Shown here piece after piece: positions 9,963-17,170 of a stretch of 34,008 nucleotides of DNA. The DNA lies in contig CACWOX010000023.1 of assembly GCA_902762615.1 (NCBI GenBank), positions 1 through 34,008 of the forward strand, read 5' to 3'. The translations under genes were made by a program, and so were the position numbers. Positions within the stretch are counted from its first letter, which is position 1. Each line of letters begins with the position of its first letter. Below the pieces are notes generated by a model that was not told where the DNA came from, searched no databases, and saw only the letters and a program-made list of their open reading frames with translations. Origin of the DNA: an uncultured Ruminococcus sp. GTDB taxonomy: Bacteria > Bacillota > Clostridia > Oscillospirales > Acutalibacteraceae.

Positions 9963-10664
9963 GTGAATGACAGCTTTCCGCGAATTATAACTTTGCTTCG
10001 TACCGAGCGCAATATTACCCAGAAGGACGCGGCAAAGGATCTTAACATTTCTCAGGCGCTGCTCTCGCATTACGAACGGGGCGCAAGGGAATGCGGATTG
10101 GATTTCCTGATTAAAATTGCCGATTATTACGGCGTTTCCTGTGACTATCTGCTTGGCAGAACCTCCGACCGCAGCGGTGCAAAGCTCACGGTCAACGATA
10201 TTCCCGAGCCGGACGATGCCGCTGACAACATAATGAAAGGCTCCACACTGCCAATACTTAATAAAAAGCTGATTGCCAATTCACTCAATATTATTTTTGA
10301 CCTACTTCAAAAGCTGGACAATCCGGACCTCACAAATCAGATTTCAACTTATCATATGATTTCGGTCTATAAAATCTTCCGGATTCTCTACTCGGCAAAC
10401 TCGCAAAATTCATCCAGCTTCTTCTCGGTGTCAGAAAACACATTTCAGGGCTTTTCCGATGCGTCAATGAGCATCATTGAATCGCACATACGCTCCCTCG
10501 CAGCCGGCAGGGAAATTGACGGAATGAAACCTATCAGCGACACCCAGCCGCTCGCCATGTCGTTTGACAGCATAAACAGTGATTATCAGCTCTTTGCTTC
10601 CTCACTGATGAACCTCATCAGAAGCGCCGAAAGCGCGATGGATTTTTCTAAAGATAAAAATTAA
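9963..10664 (+). CDS. XRE-family transcriptional regulator
   Basis: A 233-residue protein with an N-terminal Cro/C1-type helix-turn-helix at about residues 7-61 (LLRTERNITQKDAAKDLN then QALLSHYERGAR and IADYYGVSCDYLLGRT). The remaining ~170 residues are a mostly helical domain with no recognised ligand motif. It starts with GTG at 9963, preceded by GAGGTG at 8 nt. It is divergent from the histidine phosphatase, and the shared 200-bp intergenic region contains a perfect inverted repeat next to its start, so autoregulation and possibly control of the phosphatase are plausible. Comparable XRE proteins occur as single chromosomal regulators in many Clostridia; targets are unknown. Confidence 0.88.
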   Translation: MNDSFPRIITLLRTERNITQKDAAKDLNISQALLSHYERGARECGLDFLIKIADYYGVSCDYLLGRTSDRSGAKLTVNDIPEPDDAADNIMKGSTLPILNKKLIANSLNIIFDLLQKLDNPDLTNQISTYHMISVYKIFRILYSANSQNSSSFFSVSENTFQGFSDASMSIIESHIRSLAAGREIDGMKPISDTQPLAMSFDSINSDYQLFASSLMNLIRSAESAMDFSKDKN

Positions 10665-10780: not shown

Positions 10781-12211
10781 TTATTCCTGATTAAGAATTT
10801 CCTTGTAAAGATTGTGATACTGCTTTGCTCTCTTGCCCCAGCTGTTGTCACAGTTCATGGCGCGCTTGACAAGAATCCTCCAGCCGTCTCGGTTGGAAAA
10901 TCCTCCCAATGCGCGGTAGATGGCGTTGAGCATCTCCCTGCCGTTGTAAGCCTGGAATACAAAGCCGTTGCCGTAGCCGTCTGCACTGTCCGAAACCGTA
11001 TCGCGCAGACTTCCGGTCTCTCTGACAATCGGAATGCTTCCGTAGCGCAGCGCGACCATCTGAGCCGTCGAGCCGGGAGCTATCTTTGAGGGTACGAGGA
11101 ACATATCGCTCGCCGCATAGATCTTGCGGGCAAGCTCCGGAATGAAGCCGAAGCAGGCGACGAATTTGTCGCGGTACTTCTCCTGCATCTGTCTGAAATA
11201 CTCCTCATATTCCCAGTCGCCCGAACCGAGTATGACAAACTGCACATCTGCGTATTGCAGCAGCTCTTCCAGCACATCGCGCAGAATATCCATGCCCTTG
11301 GGTGTGATCATACTGCTGACCATACCGATCATAGGAACGTCCTTGCGCTCAGGCAGGAAAAGTCTGCGCTGGAGTTCGCGCTTATTAATCTCCTTGCCGG
11401 TGATGAATGAATCGTCGCCGTACTGGGCATATGTCATCATATCGGTTTCCGGATTATAGGCTGCTTTATCCAGACCGTTGAGAATTCCCCTTATCTTTGA
11501 CCAGCGGTCGCGGATAATGGAATCCAGCCCGAACGAAAACCACGGGTCACGCAGCTCCTCGGCATAGGTCTGGCTGGATGTGGTGACGACATTTGCCGTC
11601 TCGATGGCGCCCTTGAGCAGATTGATGCAGCCGTCGAACTCCACCAGTCCCTTGTCGCTCTCGGGTATGCCGAGCACTTCTTCCACAAGCTCCATGCCAT
11701 ATTTACCCTGGTACTGGATATTGTGAATGGTAAAAACCGTCTTTGTGCCGTAGAACCACTCGTTCTTGGAGTAGAAAAGATGATAGTAAACAGGCACAAG
11801 CGCTGTCTGCCAGTCGTTGGCGTGAATAATATCAGGCTTATAATCAACATACGGCAGCATTTCGAGCACTGCACGGGAGAAGAAGGCAAATCTCTCGGCA
11901 TCGTCGTAATGCCCGTAGAAGCCTTTGCGCTTGAAGTAGTACTGATTGTCGATAAAATAGTAATCTATGCCTTTGTATCTCGCCTCAAAGACCCCGCAGT
12001 ACTGACGTCTCCACGCAACAGGAACCGAAAGGCTGACAATAAATTTCATGCTGTCCTTGAGCTCCTGCGGAATTCCGTCATACAGGGGCATTACCACGCG
12101 GCAGGTCACGAGTCGCTGACGCAAAGCGTATGGGAGACAACCCGCTACCTCGGCCAATCCGCCGGAATAGGCAAAAGGCATAGCCTCGCTTGTTACATAC
12201 AAAACTCTCAT
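10781..12211 (-). CDS. glgA: GT5 glycogen synthase homologue lacking key catalytic residues
   Basis: A 476-residue GlgA-fold protein of normal length, with GT5 landmarks throughout: GGLAEVAG (17-24), IIHANDWQTALVP (128-140), TVFTIHNIQYQG (158-169), ILNGLD (243-248) and ALRYGSIPIVRETGSLRDTV (387-406). A canonical enzyme adds ADP-glucose to glycogen. Three residues described as essential in E. coli GlgA are changed: Lys15 of KTGG is Tyr15 (AYSGG), Arg300 of SRLTxQKG is Ser300 (SSMITPKG, Lys305 kept), and Glu377 of FEPCG is Ala378 (KIAPG). It is the last gene of glgB-C-D-A, 47 bp after glgD. It may be a non-catalytic or altered paralogue with a true GlgA elsewhere; family membership is certain, activity is not. 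Confidence 0.88.
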   Translation of the reverse strand: MRVLYVTSEAMPFAYSGGLAEVAGCLPYALRQRLVTCRVVMPLYDGIPQELKDSMKFIVSLSVPVAWRRQYCGVFEARYKGIDYYFIDNQYYFKRKGFYGHYDDAERFAFFSRAVLEMLPYVDYKPDIIHANDWQTALVPVYYHLFYSKNEWFYGTKTVFTIHNIQYQGKYGMELVEEVLGIPESDKGLVEFDGCINLLKGAIETANVVTTSSQTYAEELRDPWFSFGLDSIIRDRWSKIRGILNGLDKAAYNPETDMMTYAQYGDDSFITGKEINKRELQRRLFLPERKDVPMIGMVSSMITPKGMDILRDVLEELLQYADVQFVILGSGDWEYEEYFRQMQEKYRDKFVACFGFIPELARKIYAASDMFLVPSKIAPGSTAQMVALRYGSIPIVRETGSLRDTVSDSADGYGNGFVFQAYNGREMLNAIYRALGGFSNRDGWRILVKRAMNCDNSWGKRAKQYHNLYKEILNQE

Positions 12212-12258: not shown

Positions 12259-13374
12259 TCAGACCACACTGCCCTTGGAAACGTAGATCGGGTAGGACTC
12301 GGTGCCTATCATTGCCTTGCCGTCGCTGAAGGTTACGTCCTTGTCACTGACAAGATAGGTCAGCACGGTATCGTCGCCGATCACGGTGTCCTGCATGATG
12401 ATGCAGTTGGAGAGCTTGGAACCCTTGCCAACATGAACGCCGCGGAAGAGCACGCAATTTTCAACCTCGCCCTCAATGACACAGCCGTCGGCTATGATGG
12501 AATTGGTGACAACCGATCCGAGACCGTATCTGGTGGGCATTTCGTCTCTTTCCTTGGTGTAAATGGGACGCATGGGATTGAAGAGATCCTTGAGAACGTC
12601 CATATTCATCAGATCCATATTGACCTTGAAGTAAGACTGCATGGAATCCAGCGTGCCGACATAGCCTTCAAACCTATAGCCGTAAATCTTATTTTCAAGC
12701 ACGCCTCTTTGCAGTATGTCGCGGACAAAATTGCTGCGGTTTCTGCTGACGGCTTCGGCTATGGTTTTCTGCAGGAAGGACTTCCTCATGACATAGATGC
12801 CCATGCTCCATGTTGCCTTTTCGCCCTTCTTGGTGCCGACAACTATATCGGTAACCTTGTCCTGACCGTTGAGCTCGAGCACTACCGGCTCACTGAGATC
12901 AGCGGGCATTTCGCTGTTCTTGTAAACAATTGTAATATCGGCGTTGGTATCGAGATGTGCGTCGAGCACTTTCTTGAAATCGAGATTGCAAATCATGTCA
13001 CAGTCAGCGAGAATGACAAATTCCTCATTGCAGTTCTTGAGGAAGCTCGAAATGCCGTCAAGTGCTTCGATGCGGTTGCTGTACATCTGATTGCCGTTGC
13101 CGAAGGGAGGAAGGATAAACAGACCTTCACTCTTTCTGGAAAGATCCCATGCCTTGCCTGAGCCGAGGTGATCCATCAGCGAATGATAGTTGCTCTTGGT
13201 GATAACGCCAACCTTATTGACGCCGGAATTGACCATATTGGAAAGCGGGAAGTCTATGGTGCGGTATCTGCCGCCGAAGGGCACCGAGCCGAATGTTCTG
13301 ATATTGGTGACCTGCTGCATGGTATCGTCATGCATATTGGAAAAAATGATACCTACTACGTTATTTCCTCTCAT
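12259..13374 (-). CDS. glgD: GlgD, non-catalytic ADP-glucose pyrophosphorylase subunit
   Basis: A 371-residue homologue of GlgC typical of Firmicutes. The nucleotide-binding AGGxGxRL motif is replaced by FSNMHDDTMQQV and the SGDHIYKMD motif by ADCDMICNLD, so it should not catalyse by itself. FGGRYRTIDFPLSNMVNSG and the C-terminal left-handed beta-helix repeats (VIEGEVENCVLF, KLSNCIIMQDTVIG) are intact. GlgD associates with GlgC and raises its activity or shifts its regulation. Its ATG shares one base with the glgC stop (TAATG), and GGAGGT lies inside the glgC end, so translational coupling and a 1:1 complex are likely. Confidence 0.96.
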   Translation of the reverse strand: MRGNNVVGIIFSNMHDDTMQQVTNIRTFGSVPFGGRYRTIDFPLSNMVNSGVNKVGVITKSNYHSLMDHLGSGKAWDLSRKSEGLFILPPFGNGNQMYSNRIEALDGISSFLKNCNEEFVILADCDMICNLDFKKVLDAHLDTNADITIVYKNSEMPADLSEPVVLELNGQDKVTDIVVGTKKGEKATWSMGIYVMRKSFLQKTIAEAVSRNRSNFVRDILQRGVLENKIYGYRFEGYVGTLDSMQSYFKVNMDLMNMDVLKDLFNPMRPIYTKERDEMPTRYGLGSVVTNSIIADGCVIEGEVENCVLFRGVHVGKGSKLSNCIIMQDTVIGDDTVLTYLVSDKDVTFSDGKAMIGTESYPIYVSKGSVV

Positions 13375-14591
13375 TACTTTGTCACCTCCGGAATATCCTC
13401 TTCAACCATTGCCTTTGCCTTGACCACAGCGTTTGCACCAACCTTGACGCCTCCGCCGATAACGGCAATGCCCCAGTTGTCTCTGTTTTCCATCTGTTCG
13501 GGGCGCTCGCCTACCACAGCGCCGGGACCGATTACGGCGTTCTCGGCAACAATGGCAAACTGAACCACAGCGCCTTCCATAATCTTGGCGCCGGGCATGA
13601 TGATGGATTCGGTGACCTTGGCACCTGTCTCCACCTGCACGCCCTCAAAGAGAATAGAGAATTCCAACTGACCGTTGACCATACATCCCTCGGTAACAAG
13701 CGAATTCTGACAATCCGCATTCTTGCCGACATAGTGAGGCGGCATAATGGGATTGCGTGTAAATATTCTCCATGAAGGATCAGACATATCGAGCGGATCG
13801 TTGGGATCGAGCAGATCCATGTTGGCTTCCCAGAGAGAGTCGATGGTTCCGACGTCCTTCCAATATCCCTCGAACTTCCATGCGACCATCTTCTCGCCTG
13901 CATTCAGCATAGCGGGAAGTACGTCCTTGCCGAAGTCATTGCTGCTTTCGGGATTGGCTTCGTCCATTTCCAAATACTTGCGCAGCTTATCCCAGCTGAA
14001 GATATATATACCCATCGAAGCGTTGTTGCTCTTGGGTACCTTCGGCTTCTCGTCGAATTCGTAGATGGTGCCGTCCTCGTTGCAGTTGAGTATGCCGAAG
14101 CGGGAGGCTTCCTCCATCGGTACCTGATAGGCTGCGATGGTGCAGGCTGCTTTGTGCGACTTGTGGAAAGCGAGCATCTCGGAGTAGTCCATCTTGTAGA
14201 TGTGGTCGCCCGAGAGGATCACCACATAGTCGGGGTTGTATCTCTCAATAAAGGGGATATTCTGATAAATGGCATTTGCTGTGCCCTTATACCAGTCGGC
14301 ACCGTGTGTTCCCTGATAGGGCGGAAGAGCGTGAACGCCTCCGTACATTGTATCGAGATTCCATGGCTGACCGTTGCCCAGATAGTCATTGAGCACGAGC
14401 GGCTGATACTGCGTCAGAACGCCGACAGTGTCTATGCCGGAATTGACGCAGTTGGACAGCGGGAAGTCGATTATCCTGTATTTGCCTCCAAACGGTACTG
14501 CCGGCTTTGCAATTCTCTTGGTCAGGGCATAAAGTCTGCTGCCCTGTCCGCCTGCAAGCAGCATTGCAATACATTCTTGCTTTGGATACAT
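13374..14591 (-). CDS. glgC: Glucose-1-phosphate adenylyltransferase, catalytic subunit
   Basis: A 405-residue enzyme making ADP-glucose from ATP and glucose-1-phosphate, the committed step of bacterial glycogen synthesis. The N-terminal pyrophosphorylase motif [13 protein letters not shown] and [19 protein letters not shown] are intact. [10 protein letters not shown] carries the metal-binding Asp, FDEKP the sugar-phosphate Lys, and GYWKDVGTI follows. The C-terminal beta-helix is present. The ATG at 14591 follows AGGAGG by about 10 nt. It lies 197 bp downstream of glgB, with a strong hairpin in the gap, and overlaps glgD by one base. Confidence 0.97.
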
Positions 14592-14788: not shown

Positions 14789-17170
14789 TTATTCCTCGGT
14801 TGCGGGTTCTTCAGCAGGTGTCTCTGCAGGAGCCTCGGCTTCGGCTTTCTTGGCTCTGGTCGTGCGCTTCTTTGGAGCAGGCTTTTCTGCTGCAGCTGCA
14901 TCGTCGGTTTTCTTTGTCCTGGAAGCTGTCTTCTTTGCGGCAGGTTTCTTAGCGGCAGGCTTCTCTTCGGTTGCAGTCTCAGCGGTTGCTTCTTCTGCCT
15001 TCTTGGATTTTGCAGCTCTCTTCTTGGGAGCAGGCTTCTCTTCCGCTGCCTCAGCAGGCTTCTCTTCCTCAGCCGCCTTCTTTGCCTTGGCTGCACGCTT
15101 CTTGGGAGCAGGCTTCTCTTCCGCTGCCTCAGCAGGCTTCTCTTCCTCAGCCGCCTTCTTTGCCTTGGCTGCACGCTTCTTGGGAGCAGGCTTGGGAGCT
15201 TCCTCTGCAGTAACTTCGGTTTCCGCCGCTGCTTCGGCTTCCTCTTCGCCCTCAGCTGCCGGCTTCGGCTTCTTGGGCAGTCTTGCGGAAAGCTGATAGA
15301 ACTGCACGGAGAGCGAAGGCAGGTTGACTGCGATGGACTGCTCCTGGTCGTGCATCGGAACATCCTCGGTGCTGGCAACGGTACCGTTATTCTCGCCTGT
15401 ACCGCCGAATTCCGCAGCGTCAGAGGAGAATATCTGGGTGTATCTGCCGTGTACCGGAACGCCTATGCGATATCCCTCACGTCTGACCGGGCAGAAGTTG
15501 CAGATCGCAATAAGCTCATTGCCGAGCTTGTCGATTCTGCGGAAGCTGATGACGCTCTGCTGATAGTCGTCAAGCGCGATCCACTGGAATCCGTGCCATG
15601 AATCATCGACTTCCCACAGCTCGGGGTGATCGAGATAGAACTTGTTGAGCTGCTTGTTGAATTCCTTGAGCTTGGCGTGCATGGGATATTCGAGCAGATT
15701 CCAGTCGAGCTGCTTCTGATAATTCCATTCGTCAAACTGACCGATTTCAGCACCCATGAAGGTGAGCTTCTTTCCGGGGTGAGCCATTACATACGTCTGG
15801 AAAGCTCTGAGTCCGGCGAACTTCTGCCAGTAATCGCCCGGCATCTTCTGAAGCATGGACGCCTTGCCGTAAACCACCTCATCGTGGGAAAGCGCAAGCA
15901 CAAAATGCTCAGAGAATGCGTACATCAGCGAGAAGGTCAGAAGGTTATGATCGTATGAACGGTAAACCGGATCCATCGAGAAATATCTGATGGAGTCGTT
16001 CATCCAGCCCATGTTCCACTTGAAGGTGAAGCCCAGACCGCCGTCCTCCGGCTTGCCTGTGACCTGAGGCCATGCGGTGGATTCCTCTGCGATCATCATA
16101 GCGTTTGGATAGTACTCCTTGACAGCCGTGTTGAGCATCTTGAGGAATTCAACCGCTTCGAGGTTTTCATGACCGCCGTAGATATTGGGCATCCATTCGC
16201 CGTTGCTGCGGTTGTAGTCGAGGTAAAGCATCGAAGCAACAGCGTCAACACGCAAACCGTCGATGTGATACTTGTCGAGCCAGAACAGCGCATTGGATAT
16301 AAGGAAGGAACGGACTTCGTTGCGGCCGAAATCGAATACGCATGTACCCCACTCCTTGTGCTCACCCTTGCGCCAGTCGGAATATTCGTATGTGGGGGTG
16401 CCGTCAAAGCGGTAAAGACCGTGAGCGTCCTTCGGGAAGTGAGCCGGAACCCAGTCCATGATAACGCCAATGCCGTTCTCATGCAGGATATCGACAAACT
16501 TCATGAAGTCCTTAGGCTCACCGTAACGCGATGTAGGAGCGTAGTAACCACAAACCTGATATCCCCACGAGCCGTCATAGGGATACTCCGTCATAGGCAT
16601 AAGTTCGACATGTGTGTAATTCATTTCCTTCAGATAAGGAACAAGTTCTTCCGCCAGCTTGACATAGCCGAAAGGATTGCCGTCGGGATATGTTCTCCAT
16701 GAACCTGCGTGCATCTCGTAGATATTCATGGGCTTGTCGAGTTTGTCAGGCGACTGATTAGCCTTCCACTCCTGATCATGCCACTCATATCCCTCGATAT
16801 CGTAGAACCGGGTAGCGTTTGAAGGACGTGTTTCAAAATGATAGCCGTAAGGATCGCTCTTCTGCGTCATAGTGTTCCAATTGGATTCAACACAGTACTT
16901 GTAAACGCAAAAATCGCCTACACCCTGAATTTCACATTCCCACACGCCGCCGCTGTTGCACTTATACATATAGTTTGCCTGTGGATTCCAATCATTGAAA
17001 TCACCTACAACAGAGATGGACTTCGCATTGGGCGCCCATGTGCGGAAAACTACAGAACCATCACTCTGACGGTGTGCACCGAGATATTCGTATGCACGGA
17101 CGTTTTTACCTTCGTAAAAAAGATGCTGTGCCAGATTTCCTCCCGATGAGATGTTGGTTTCATTGCTCAT
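14789..17170 (-). CDS. glgB: 1,4-alpha-glucan branching enzyme with a histone-H1-like C-terminal tail
   Basis: A 793-residue GH13 enzyme forming alpha-1,6 branches in glycogen. An N-terminal CBM48 domain (about 25-110; VFRTWAPNAKSISVVGDFNDW) is followed by the GH13 barrel: nucleophile Asp309 in GLRVDAV, acid/base Glu362 in IAEEST, Asp430 in ALSHDEV. The C-terminal beta domain ends near residue 630, which is already a complete GlgB. Residues ~632-793 are an added low-complexity tail of Ala, Lys, Pro and Glu built from APKKRAAKAKKA and EEEKPAEAAEE units, like histone H1 or AlgP-type tails. The ATG at 17170 follows AGGAG by about 10 nt. First gene of glgB-C-D-A. The tail may bind polyanions or cluster the glycogen enzymes; this is inferred. 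Confidence 0.95.
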   Translation of the reverse strand: MSNETNISSGGNLAQHLFYEGKNVRAYEYLGAHRQSDGSVVFRTWAPNAKSISVVGDFNDWNPQANYMYKCNSGGVWECEIQGVGDFCVYKYCVESNWNTMTQKSDPYGYHFETRPSNATRFYDIEGYEWHDQEWKANQSPDKLDKPMNIYEMHAGSWRTYPDGNPFGYVKLAEELVPYLKEMNYTHVELMPMTEYPYDGSWGYQVCGYYAPTSRYGEPKDFMKFVDILHENGIGVIMDWVPAHFPKDAHGLYRFDGTPTYEYSDWRKGEHKEWGTCVFDFGRNEVRSFLISNALFWLDKYHIDGLRVDAVASMLYLDYNRSNGEWMPNIYGGHENLEAVEFLKMLNTAVKEYYPNAMMIAEESTAWPQVTGKPEDGGLGFTFKWNMGWMNDSIRYFSMDPVYRSYDHNLLTFSLMYAFSEHFVLALSHDEVVYGKASMLQKMPGDYWQKFAGLRAFQTYVMAHPGKKLTFMGAEIGQFDEWNYQKQLDWNLLEYPMHAKLKEFNKQLNKFYLDHPELWEVDDSWHGFQWIALDDYQQSVISFRRIDKLGNELIAICNFCPVRREGYRIGVPVHGRYTQIFSSDAAEFGGTGENNGTVASTEDVPMHDQEQSIAVNLPSLSVQFYQLSARLPKKPKPAAEGEEEAEAAAETEVTAEEAPKPAPKKRAAKAKKAAEEEKPAEAAEEKPAPKKRAAKAKKAAEEEKPAEAAEEKPAPKKRAAKSKKAEEATAETATEEKPAAKKPAAKKTASRTKKTDDAAAAEKPAPKKRTTRAKKAEAEAPAETPAEEPATEE
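15020..15193. repeat. Perfect 78-bp tandem repeat in the glgB tail
   Basis: Two identical 78-bp copies (15020-15097 and 15098-15175) plus the first 18 bases of a third (15176-15193). Each encodes 26 residues of the APKKRAAKAKKA/EEEKPAEAAEE unit. Identity at every base, including synonymous sites, points to a recent duplication; the in-frame period means copy changes keep the reading frame. Confidence 0.95.

Follow-up and report, generated by a model that had tools for sequence, protein, structure and literature searches.

The stretch of DNA analysed here, referred to as the window, comprises 34,008 nucleotides from an uncultured Ruminococcus sp. (contig CACWOX010000023.1, positions 1 to 34,008), and was shown to contain four glycogen genes on its minus strand:

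14789..17170, minus strand: glgB, branching enzyme, first in the cluster (NF008967, 905.4 bits, above cut-off)
13374..14591, minus strand: glgC (TIGR02091, 467.5 bits, above cut-off)
12259..13374, minus strand: glgD, upstream of glgA (TIGR02092, 374.7 bits, above cut-off)
10781..12211, minus strand: putative pseudo-glgA, the operon GT5 homologue (476 aa, P0001), full-length ORF and last of the four genes

These genes are organised in the order glgB-glgC-glgD-glgA, with 197 nt separating glgB from glgC and 47 nt separating glgD from glgA, while the stop codon of glgC overlaps the start codon of glgD (TAATG). The plus-strand reading of 10781-12211 contains stops and the coding strand is the minus strand, on which the glgA homologue (its product being designated here as window GlgA) represents a genuine ORF of undiminished length, in agreement with a first-pass annotation made from the sequence.

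Window GlgA was shown to match the general GlgA model TIGR02095 (482.3 bits; cut-off 328.45) as a whole-length GT5 protein, as well as PF08323 (260.8 bits), and to score just below the threshold of the equivalog model NF001898 (581.1 versus 603 bits needed), as does its intact paralogue described below (568.5 bits). Since window GlgA passes TIGR02095, automatic annotation would name such proteins glycogen synthase, a label that pseudo-synthases would carry and that constitutes a warning for genome annotation. Residue equivalence was established by alignment to E. coli GlgA (K15, R300 and E377) and Arabidopsis SSIV (K39, R332 and the FEPCG glutamate), which confirmed three previously proposed replacements:

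12167..12169, minus strand: codon 15, Tyr replacing Lys15 (a ribose contact in AtSSIV), from the alignment
11312..11314, minus strand: codon 300, Ser replacing the phosphate-binding Arg300, from the alignment (contact as described in the available text of PMC6086201)
11078..11080, minus strand: codon 378, Ala replacing the catalytic-loop Glu (Glu377 of E. coli), from the alignment

The accompanying proposal that other GT5 landmarks are intact did not hold, as C380G, G381S, L382T, G401S/A, D21E and Q304P represent further losses. Loop 378-382 reads APGST in window GlgA, with E378, C380, G381 and L382 each being present in 80/80 background sequences (30 hand-picked family operon, 23 class-level, 13 genus and 14 family stand-alone copies). 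Thus, of the residues that mark an active ADP-glucose glycogen synthase, the phosphate-binding Arg300 and the EPCGL motif are absent and K305 is retained. Mutants of E. coli R300 and E377 suffer large rate losses. Compared with E. coli GlgA (GT5; 2qzs/3cop), window GlgA is devoid of equivalents of R300, E377, C379, G380, L381 and K15. A lysine, an arginine and a glutamic acid are named as implicated in catalysis of these GT-B enzymes (PMC11046441, available text), and window GlgA, judged by its residues, very likely lacks synthase activity. Loss of the glutamate need not abolish donor binding, since the E. coli GlgA E377A variant was crystallised with ADP bound (3cop).

The donor loop K-x-G-G reads YSGG in window GlgA. 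Lys15, which had been put forward as near-invariant, was shown to be replaced by A, M or S in 30/30 sampled operon GlgAs of the family, and it is also missing from 8/23 class-level sequences that carry R300 and E378; its loss was consequently rejected as a sign of inactivity. As K15 is missing even in genomes with a single GT5 match (E <= 1e-60), Y15 represents weak evidence, and Lys15 alone is unusable as an activity marker in Clostridia. In total, 362 of 395 family genomes (named relatives including Acutalibacter sp., Faecalispora jeddahensis and Clostridium sporosphaeroides) gave a match at E <= 1e-60, mostly one match each, and the family operon GlgAs that were read (L033-L054, L070-L134) retain R300 and the glutamate and lack K15.

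Furthermore, an F-x-P arrangement at positions 356-358 was observed in 28/30 family operon copies and 17/17 genus copies, and F/Y-x-P in 29/30 family operon copies (e.g. L033 and L070), often in the only GT5 match of a genome. The same proline placement is found in the UDP-Glc-preferring CpGBSSI (PMC6086201, available text). Together with the missing K15, this is a hint that nucleotide preference could be altered in the ordinary operon enzyme of the family. Because the family operon enzymes already lack K15 and mostly carry F-x-P, it becomes more plausible that window GlgA has remained an enzyme but changed its chemistry, using another donor (UDP- or GDP-glucose, or a sugar phosphate) or performing a slow, specialised glucan transfer (e.g. 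priming) at a rebuilt donor site; prokaryotic GT5 proteins do include UDP-Glc and mixed-donor types (PMC11046441, available text). Strong conservation and the persistence of K305, F356, H163, N245 and G400 also agree with such an enzyme, whereas the continued presence in the operon of glgC and glgD, whose products serve ADP-glucose formation, speaks against it.

A search of the same genome for a second GT5 gene with KTGG and FEPCG motifs, as suggested in the first-pass annotation, identified one on contig C24, encoding a protein of 485 aa with intact KTGG, SRL and FEPCG motifs and 40% identity to window GlgA. In contrast to E. coli GlgA, window GlgA therefore coexists with an intact paralogue. 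The genome also encodes two full-length glycogen phosphorylases (C14:7712-10084 and C1:233984-236311), both outside the glg operon.

Within the genus, represented here by uncultured rumen and gut genomes, the operon GlgA was found in 17/18 genomes, with an open frame spanning the query in 17/17. A stand-alone-type GlgA was likewise matched in 17/18 genomes; K15, R300 and E378 are present in 13/13 of the sequences read, while the other four (G004, G005, G006 and G010) are known as matches only, that of G006 being a fragment. The two genomes in which one copy is missing are 78-79% complete; G009 (78% complete) carries a decayed operon copy and yielded no second GT5. In a FastTree phylogeny of 97 sequences, the genus operon copies formed one clade (support 0.999) nested among the operon GlgAs of the family, while the 27 stand-alone sequences on the tree grouped separately as another clade. 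Window GlgA thus nests in the operon GlgA clade of Clostridia.

The genus operon copies were shown to represent successive stages of loss. In clade I, consisting of the deepest genus species (G003), R300 and E378 are kept in the operon copy and a second GlgA is also present. Clade II (G001/G014) carries P300, G18A and N164S, and clade III (G009/G011/G013), which is adjacent to the clade of the window on the tree, carries S300 and G18Q; both retain the glutamate, so that loss of R300 is the only loss common to all decayed copies. In the clade of the window, S300 and A378 were observed in 11/11 genomes. The order of loss across the genus is L382, followed by R300, C380 and G401, and finally E378 and G381 (clade of the window). 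An ordinary glycogen synthase of reduced rate, weakened by these losses and leaving most of the synthesis to its intact paralogue, would be compatible with the glutamate kept in clades II and III, and with R300 also kept in clade I; however, R300, E378 and the backbone loop CGL are all missing from the clade of the window, although each is fixed in the 80 background sequences, and this reading is regarded as improbable.

The genus genomes with titles (L055-L069) are uncultured or metagenome-assembled, as would suit a sequencing or binning artefact. However, 11 genomes, each from a different species, share the substitutions while diverging at synonymous sites with the frame preserved (mean dS ~1), and the neighbouring glg genes keep the same order wherever genus contigs reach far enough. 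Sharing among 11 genomes and synonymous divergence exclude an artefact in practice, and the concern raised in the first-pass annotation, i.e. that the substitutions could be sequencing errors or absent in close relatives, was thereby settled.

The operon glgA was furthermore shown to be under strong constraint, with a median Nei-Gojobori omega of 0.042 (55 pairs) in the clade of the window, a within-clade value that is approximate because mean dS is ~1. The corresponding (equally approximate) values were 0.060 for one of the other decayed genus clades (3 pairs) and 0.057 for the second (1 pair), and, for comparison genes in the clade of the window, 0.048 for glgD, 0.020 for glgC, 0.057 for glgB and 0.032 for the intact glgA2, the neighbouring genes being readable in fewer genomes (glgD 14, glgC 11 and glgB 8). 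Between clades, dS is near saturation and omega was not relied upon. Intact family operon GlgAs exhibited an omega of 0.011-0.040 (six pairs), indicating that decayed copies evolve somewhat faster, yet remain strongly constrained. A decaying pseudogene held by its operon position could account for the loss of six near-invariant donor/catalytic sites in the presence of a redundant intact copy, but this is contradicted by purifying selection at about the level of glgD, by the frame being open in every genus copy, and by the finding that only 9/175 family-conserved positions exhibit three or more residues in decayed copies; such an origin is considered very improbable. Catalytic residues have been lost and purifying selection has been retained, the sequence signature of a putative pseudoenzyme.

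To describe where change is concentrated, 90 near-invariant sites (>=95% identical in the 80 background sequences) were considered, 10 of which are changed in the clade of the window: 6/9 donor/catalytic sites, 0/8 N-domain sugar-cleft sites and 4/73 other near-invariant sites (contact lists drawn up here from the available text of PMC6086201). Donor/catalytic sites versus the rest gave a Fisher value of 2.5e-5, in which shared ancestry is ignored and sites are treated as independent. In the 30 family operon sequences, at most 2 near-invariant sites are changed (median 0). Relaxation of the C-terminal half as a genus-specific trait found no support, as the family shows an N/C difference in the same direction.

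The kept N-domain cleft residues are E9, Y99, D133, W134, Q135, H163, N164, Y167 and N245; N164 was tallied with these as a neighbour of listed contacts, itself being no listed contact. On the donor side, K305, F356 (the adenine-stacking aromatic), V298, H163, N245 and G400 are kept, a set that includes several contacts to the phosphate, adenine or glucose of the donor; H163 and N245, tallied here as cleft residues, contact the donor glucose O6 (PMC6086201, available text). An AlphaFold2 model of window GlgA retained the whole GT-B fold. Donor loop 11-17 was predicted with pLDDT <50, and block 11-20 gave 49 in window GlgA compared with 79 in an intact relative, both folded from the same sequences.

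Decayed GlgAs were also identified in glg clusters outside the genus. Among 138 GT5 frames (loci L135-L274, duplicates included, and including picked multi-copy class genomes), four further decayed copies were found, and follow-up searches brought this number to six genomes in two further Clostridia families. Three of these, from one family (G476, G452 and G521), carry R300P together with several changes among G18, C380, G381 and G401 and, once, E to D; in another family, G498 carries R300T with little lost beyond this residue, and G540 and G696 carry R300E. Most of the six copies also lack G18, C380, G381, L382 or G401, and each of the six genomes encodes another GT5 with R300 and E378. Five of the six decayed copies lie beside glgD and the sixth is located in a glgA-glgP-glgC cluster, while glgP was confirmed to adjoin the decayed glgA directly in 4/4 loci tested:

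L275:6233-7663: decayed GlgA, R300 to P or T, in a glgC-glgD-glgA-glgP or glgA-glgP-glgC cluster
L276:6629-8062: decayed GlgA, R300 to P or T, in a glgC-glgD-glgA-glgP or glgA-glgP-glgC cluster
L277:6484-7920: decayed GlgA, R300 to P or T, in a glgC-glgD-glgA-glgP or glgA-glgP-glgC cluster
L278:5985-7427: decayed GlgA, R300 to P or T, in a glgC-glgD-glgA-glgP or glgA-glgP-glgC cluster

A further FastTree phylogeny divided the decayed copies into three groups, intact relatives lying in between, and a close relative (G520) keeps R300; since G498 joins G540/G696 with weak support (0.50), decay may have taken place two or more times in that group. Cleft losses were observed in the f23 lineage, namely H163Y in L282 and H163Y, N164G and Q135P in L283, and N164 is also changed in L295 and L296. 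The only intact-looking GT5 found in G540 besides its R300E operon copy is the product of L367. This divergent GT5 (contig C31) carries KRGG, CRL and FEPCG motifs and is 29% identical to the intact copy.

Across the decayed copies, no single residue has taken the place of R300 (S, P, T and E all occur), and variation is also seen at positions 18, 381, 382 and 401. This pattern looks like loss rather than redesign, and an enzyme with altered chemistry is accordingly judged unlikely.

Loss was shown to be concentrated in copies linked to glgC or glgD (i.e. with either gene within flanks of about 1.5 kb). Among 196 readable copies from 130 genomes, R300 or E378 is lost in 21/79 linked versus 1/117 unlinked copies (Fisher 1.3e-8, shared ancestry ignored), and outside the genus in 5/62 versus 1/104; as copies are related by descent, these counts are descriptions more than tests. 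The single unlinked decayed copy has glgC ~2.5 kb away, behind glgP. For this set, duplicates were merged to 197 copies, one copy without both positions was dropped, and the second copies of G585, G004, G005, G006 and G010 are not part of it. The copy search covered 21 of the family genomes with >=2 matches and 42 picked class genomes with >=2, at cuts of 1e-60, 1e-30 and 1e-100, at which weaker GT5 copies may be missed (as the second copy of G540 initially was). Decay as an inevitable consequence of carrying a second GlgA was rejected, as outside the genus 20/24 linked operon GlgAs from genomes with several copies have stayed intact.

The interpretation of window GlgA as a conserved pseudo-synthase is well supported by the intact paralogue, the dN/dS of 0.04, the ordered and selective loss, the kept cleft and the recurrence; this part of the first-pass annotation stood, whereas its Lys15 argument did not, and the regulatory, scaffold or primer-binding role that it proposed is a possible one. 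With a probability of roughly 0.6, the operon GlgA is a catalytically dead, selectively kept, glucan-binding and non-catalytic partner in glycogen synthesis. Points against this are the donor-side residues that persist, the ADP-bound crystal of E. coli E377A, the glutamate retained in clades II and III, the small extent of loss in G498, the intact operon GlgAs of most other multi-copy genomes, the cleft changes in the f23 lineage, clade II, L295 and L296, and the case of G009. In a lineage that also possesses an intact stand-alone GlgA, the operon copy lost its C-terminal donor-phosphate site and catalytic loop stepwise, whereas its GT-B fold, as predicted, and the residues of its N-domain cleft for alpha-glucan were preserved. 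The resulting protein would still bind glycogen or malto-oligosaccharide ends, and could act by association with intact GlgA or by presentation of primer or glycogen near GlgC/GlgD and GlgB, its dose being presumably tied via the glg operon to the ADP-glucose supply. Its simplest function would be that of a glucan-binding partner of intact GlgA, or of a platform on which intact GlgA is placed close to where ADP-glucose is made.

In bacteria, glycogen synthase is commonly viewed as one catalytic protein, and regulation is assigned to GlgC/GlgD; under the proposed mechanism the GlgC/GlgD logic would recur one pathway step later. GlgD is described as the inactive subunit of the Firmicutes ADP-glucose pyrophosphorylase, which modulates GlgC (PMC9093745, available text), and the parallel drawn in the first-pass annotation fits both this role and the operon position. 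Like GlgD, the pseudo-glgA product would be related to an enzyme of the pathway, lack activity and yet be maintained, and the genes for both lie within one operon; GlgD differs in belonging to the nucleotidyl transferase family and in having its active partner encoded next door, whereas the intact GlgA is encoded on another contig.

Among plant proteins, STARCH SYNTHASE 5 (SS5) lacks the C-terminal GT1 subdomain, which is present in window GlgA (PF13692 and PF00534 matches at 287-435). SS5 is described as a non-catalytic protein that binds MRC and favours the initiation of starch granules (PMC10801857 and PMC11772324, available text), i.e. a non-catalytic member of the starch/glycogen synthases, as is proposed for window GlgA; being a plant protein, its origin is assumed to be independent. 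Among the open-access papers listed in literature searches, and in the available text of PMC10395257 and PMC11046441, no published bacterial GT5 pseudo-synthase was found, and information even on the oligomeric state of glycogen synthase is described as limited (PMC11046441). A wider proposal, which is put forward tentatively and as possible rather than probable, is that Clostridia have repeatedly, about three times, made the GlgA of a glgC/glgD cluster into a non-catalytic, glucan-binding 'GlgA-prime' subunit of a separate active GlgA, which would adjust the synthesis of glycogen or its initiation in the way that GlgD modulates GlgC, and would represent a bacterial counterpart of SS5. Living intermediates within a single genus (R300 and E378 kept; R300 lost; both lost) make such control of GlgA directly testable, in terms of the step at which activity disappears and of whether the dead form binds glucan or alters the intact enzyme.

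The remainder of the glg locus exhibited two further features. The C-terminal ~160 residues of GlgB (14789-15277, minus strand) form a Lys/Ala/Pro/Glu-rich repeat tail with PAPKKRAAKAKKAAEEEKPAEAAEE-like units, and Lys/Arg-rich GlgB tails of varying length were observed in the genus and in many of the family relatives listed; this tail resembles a basic extension, perhaps one that binds polymer or nucleic acid. Convergent with the end of the operon, a gene at 9963-10664 (plus strand) encodes a protein with an N-terminal helix-turn-helix (PF01381, 50.5 bits), a possible local regulator.
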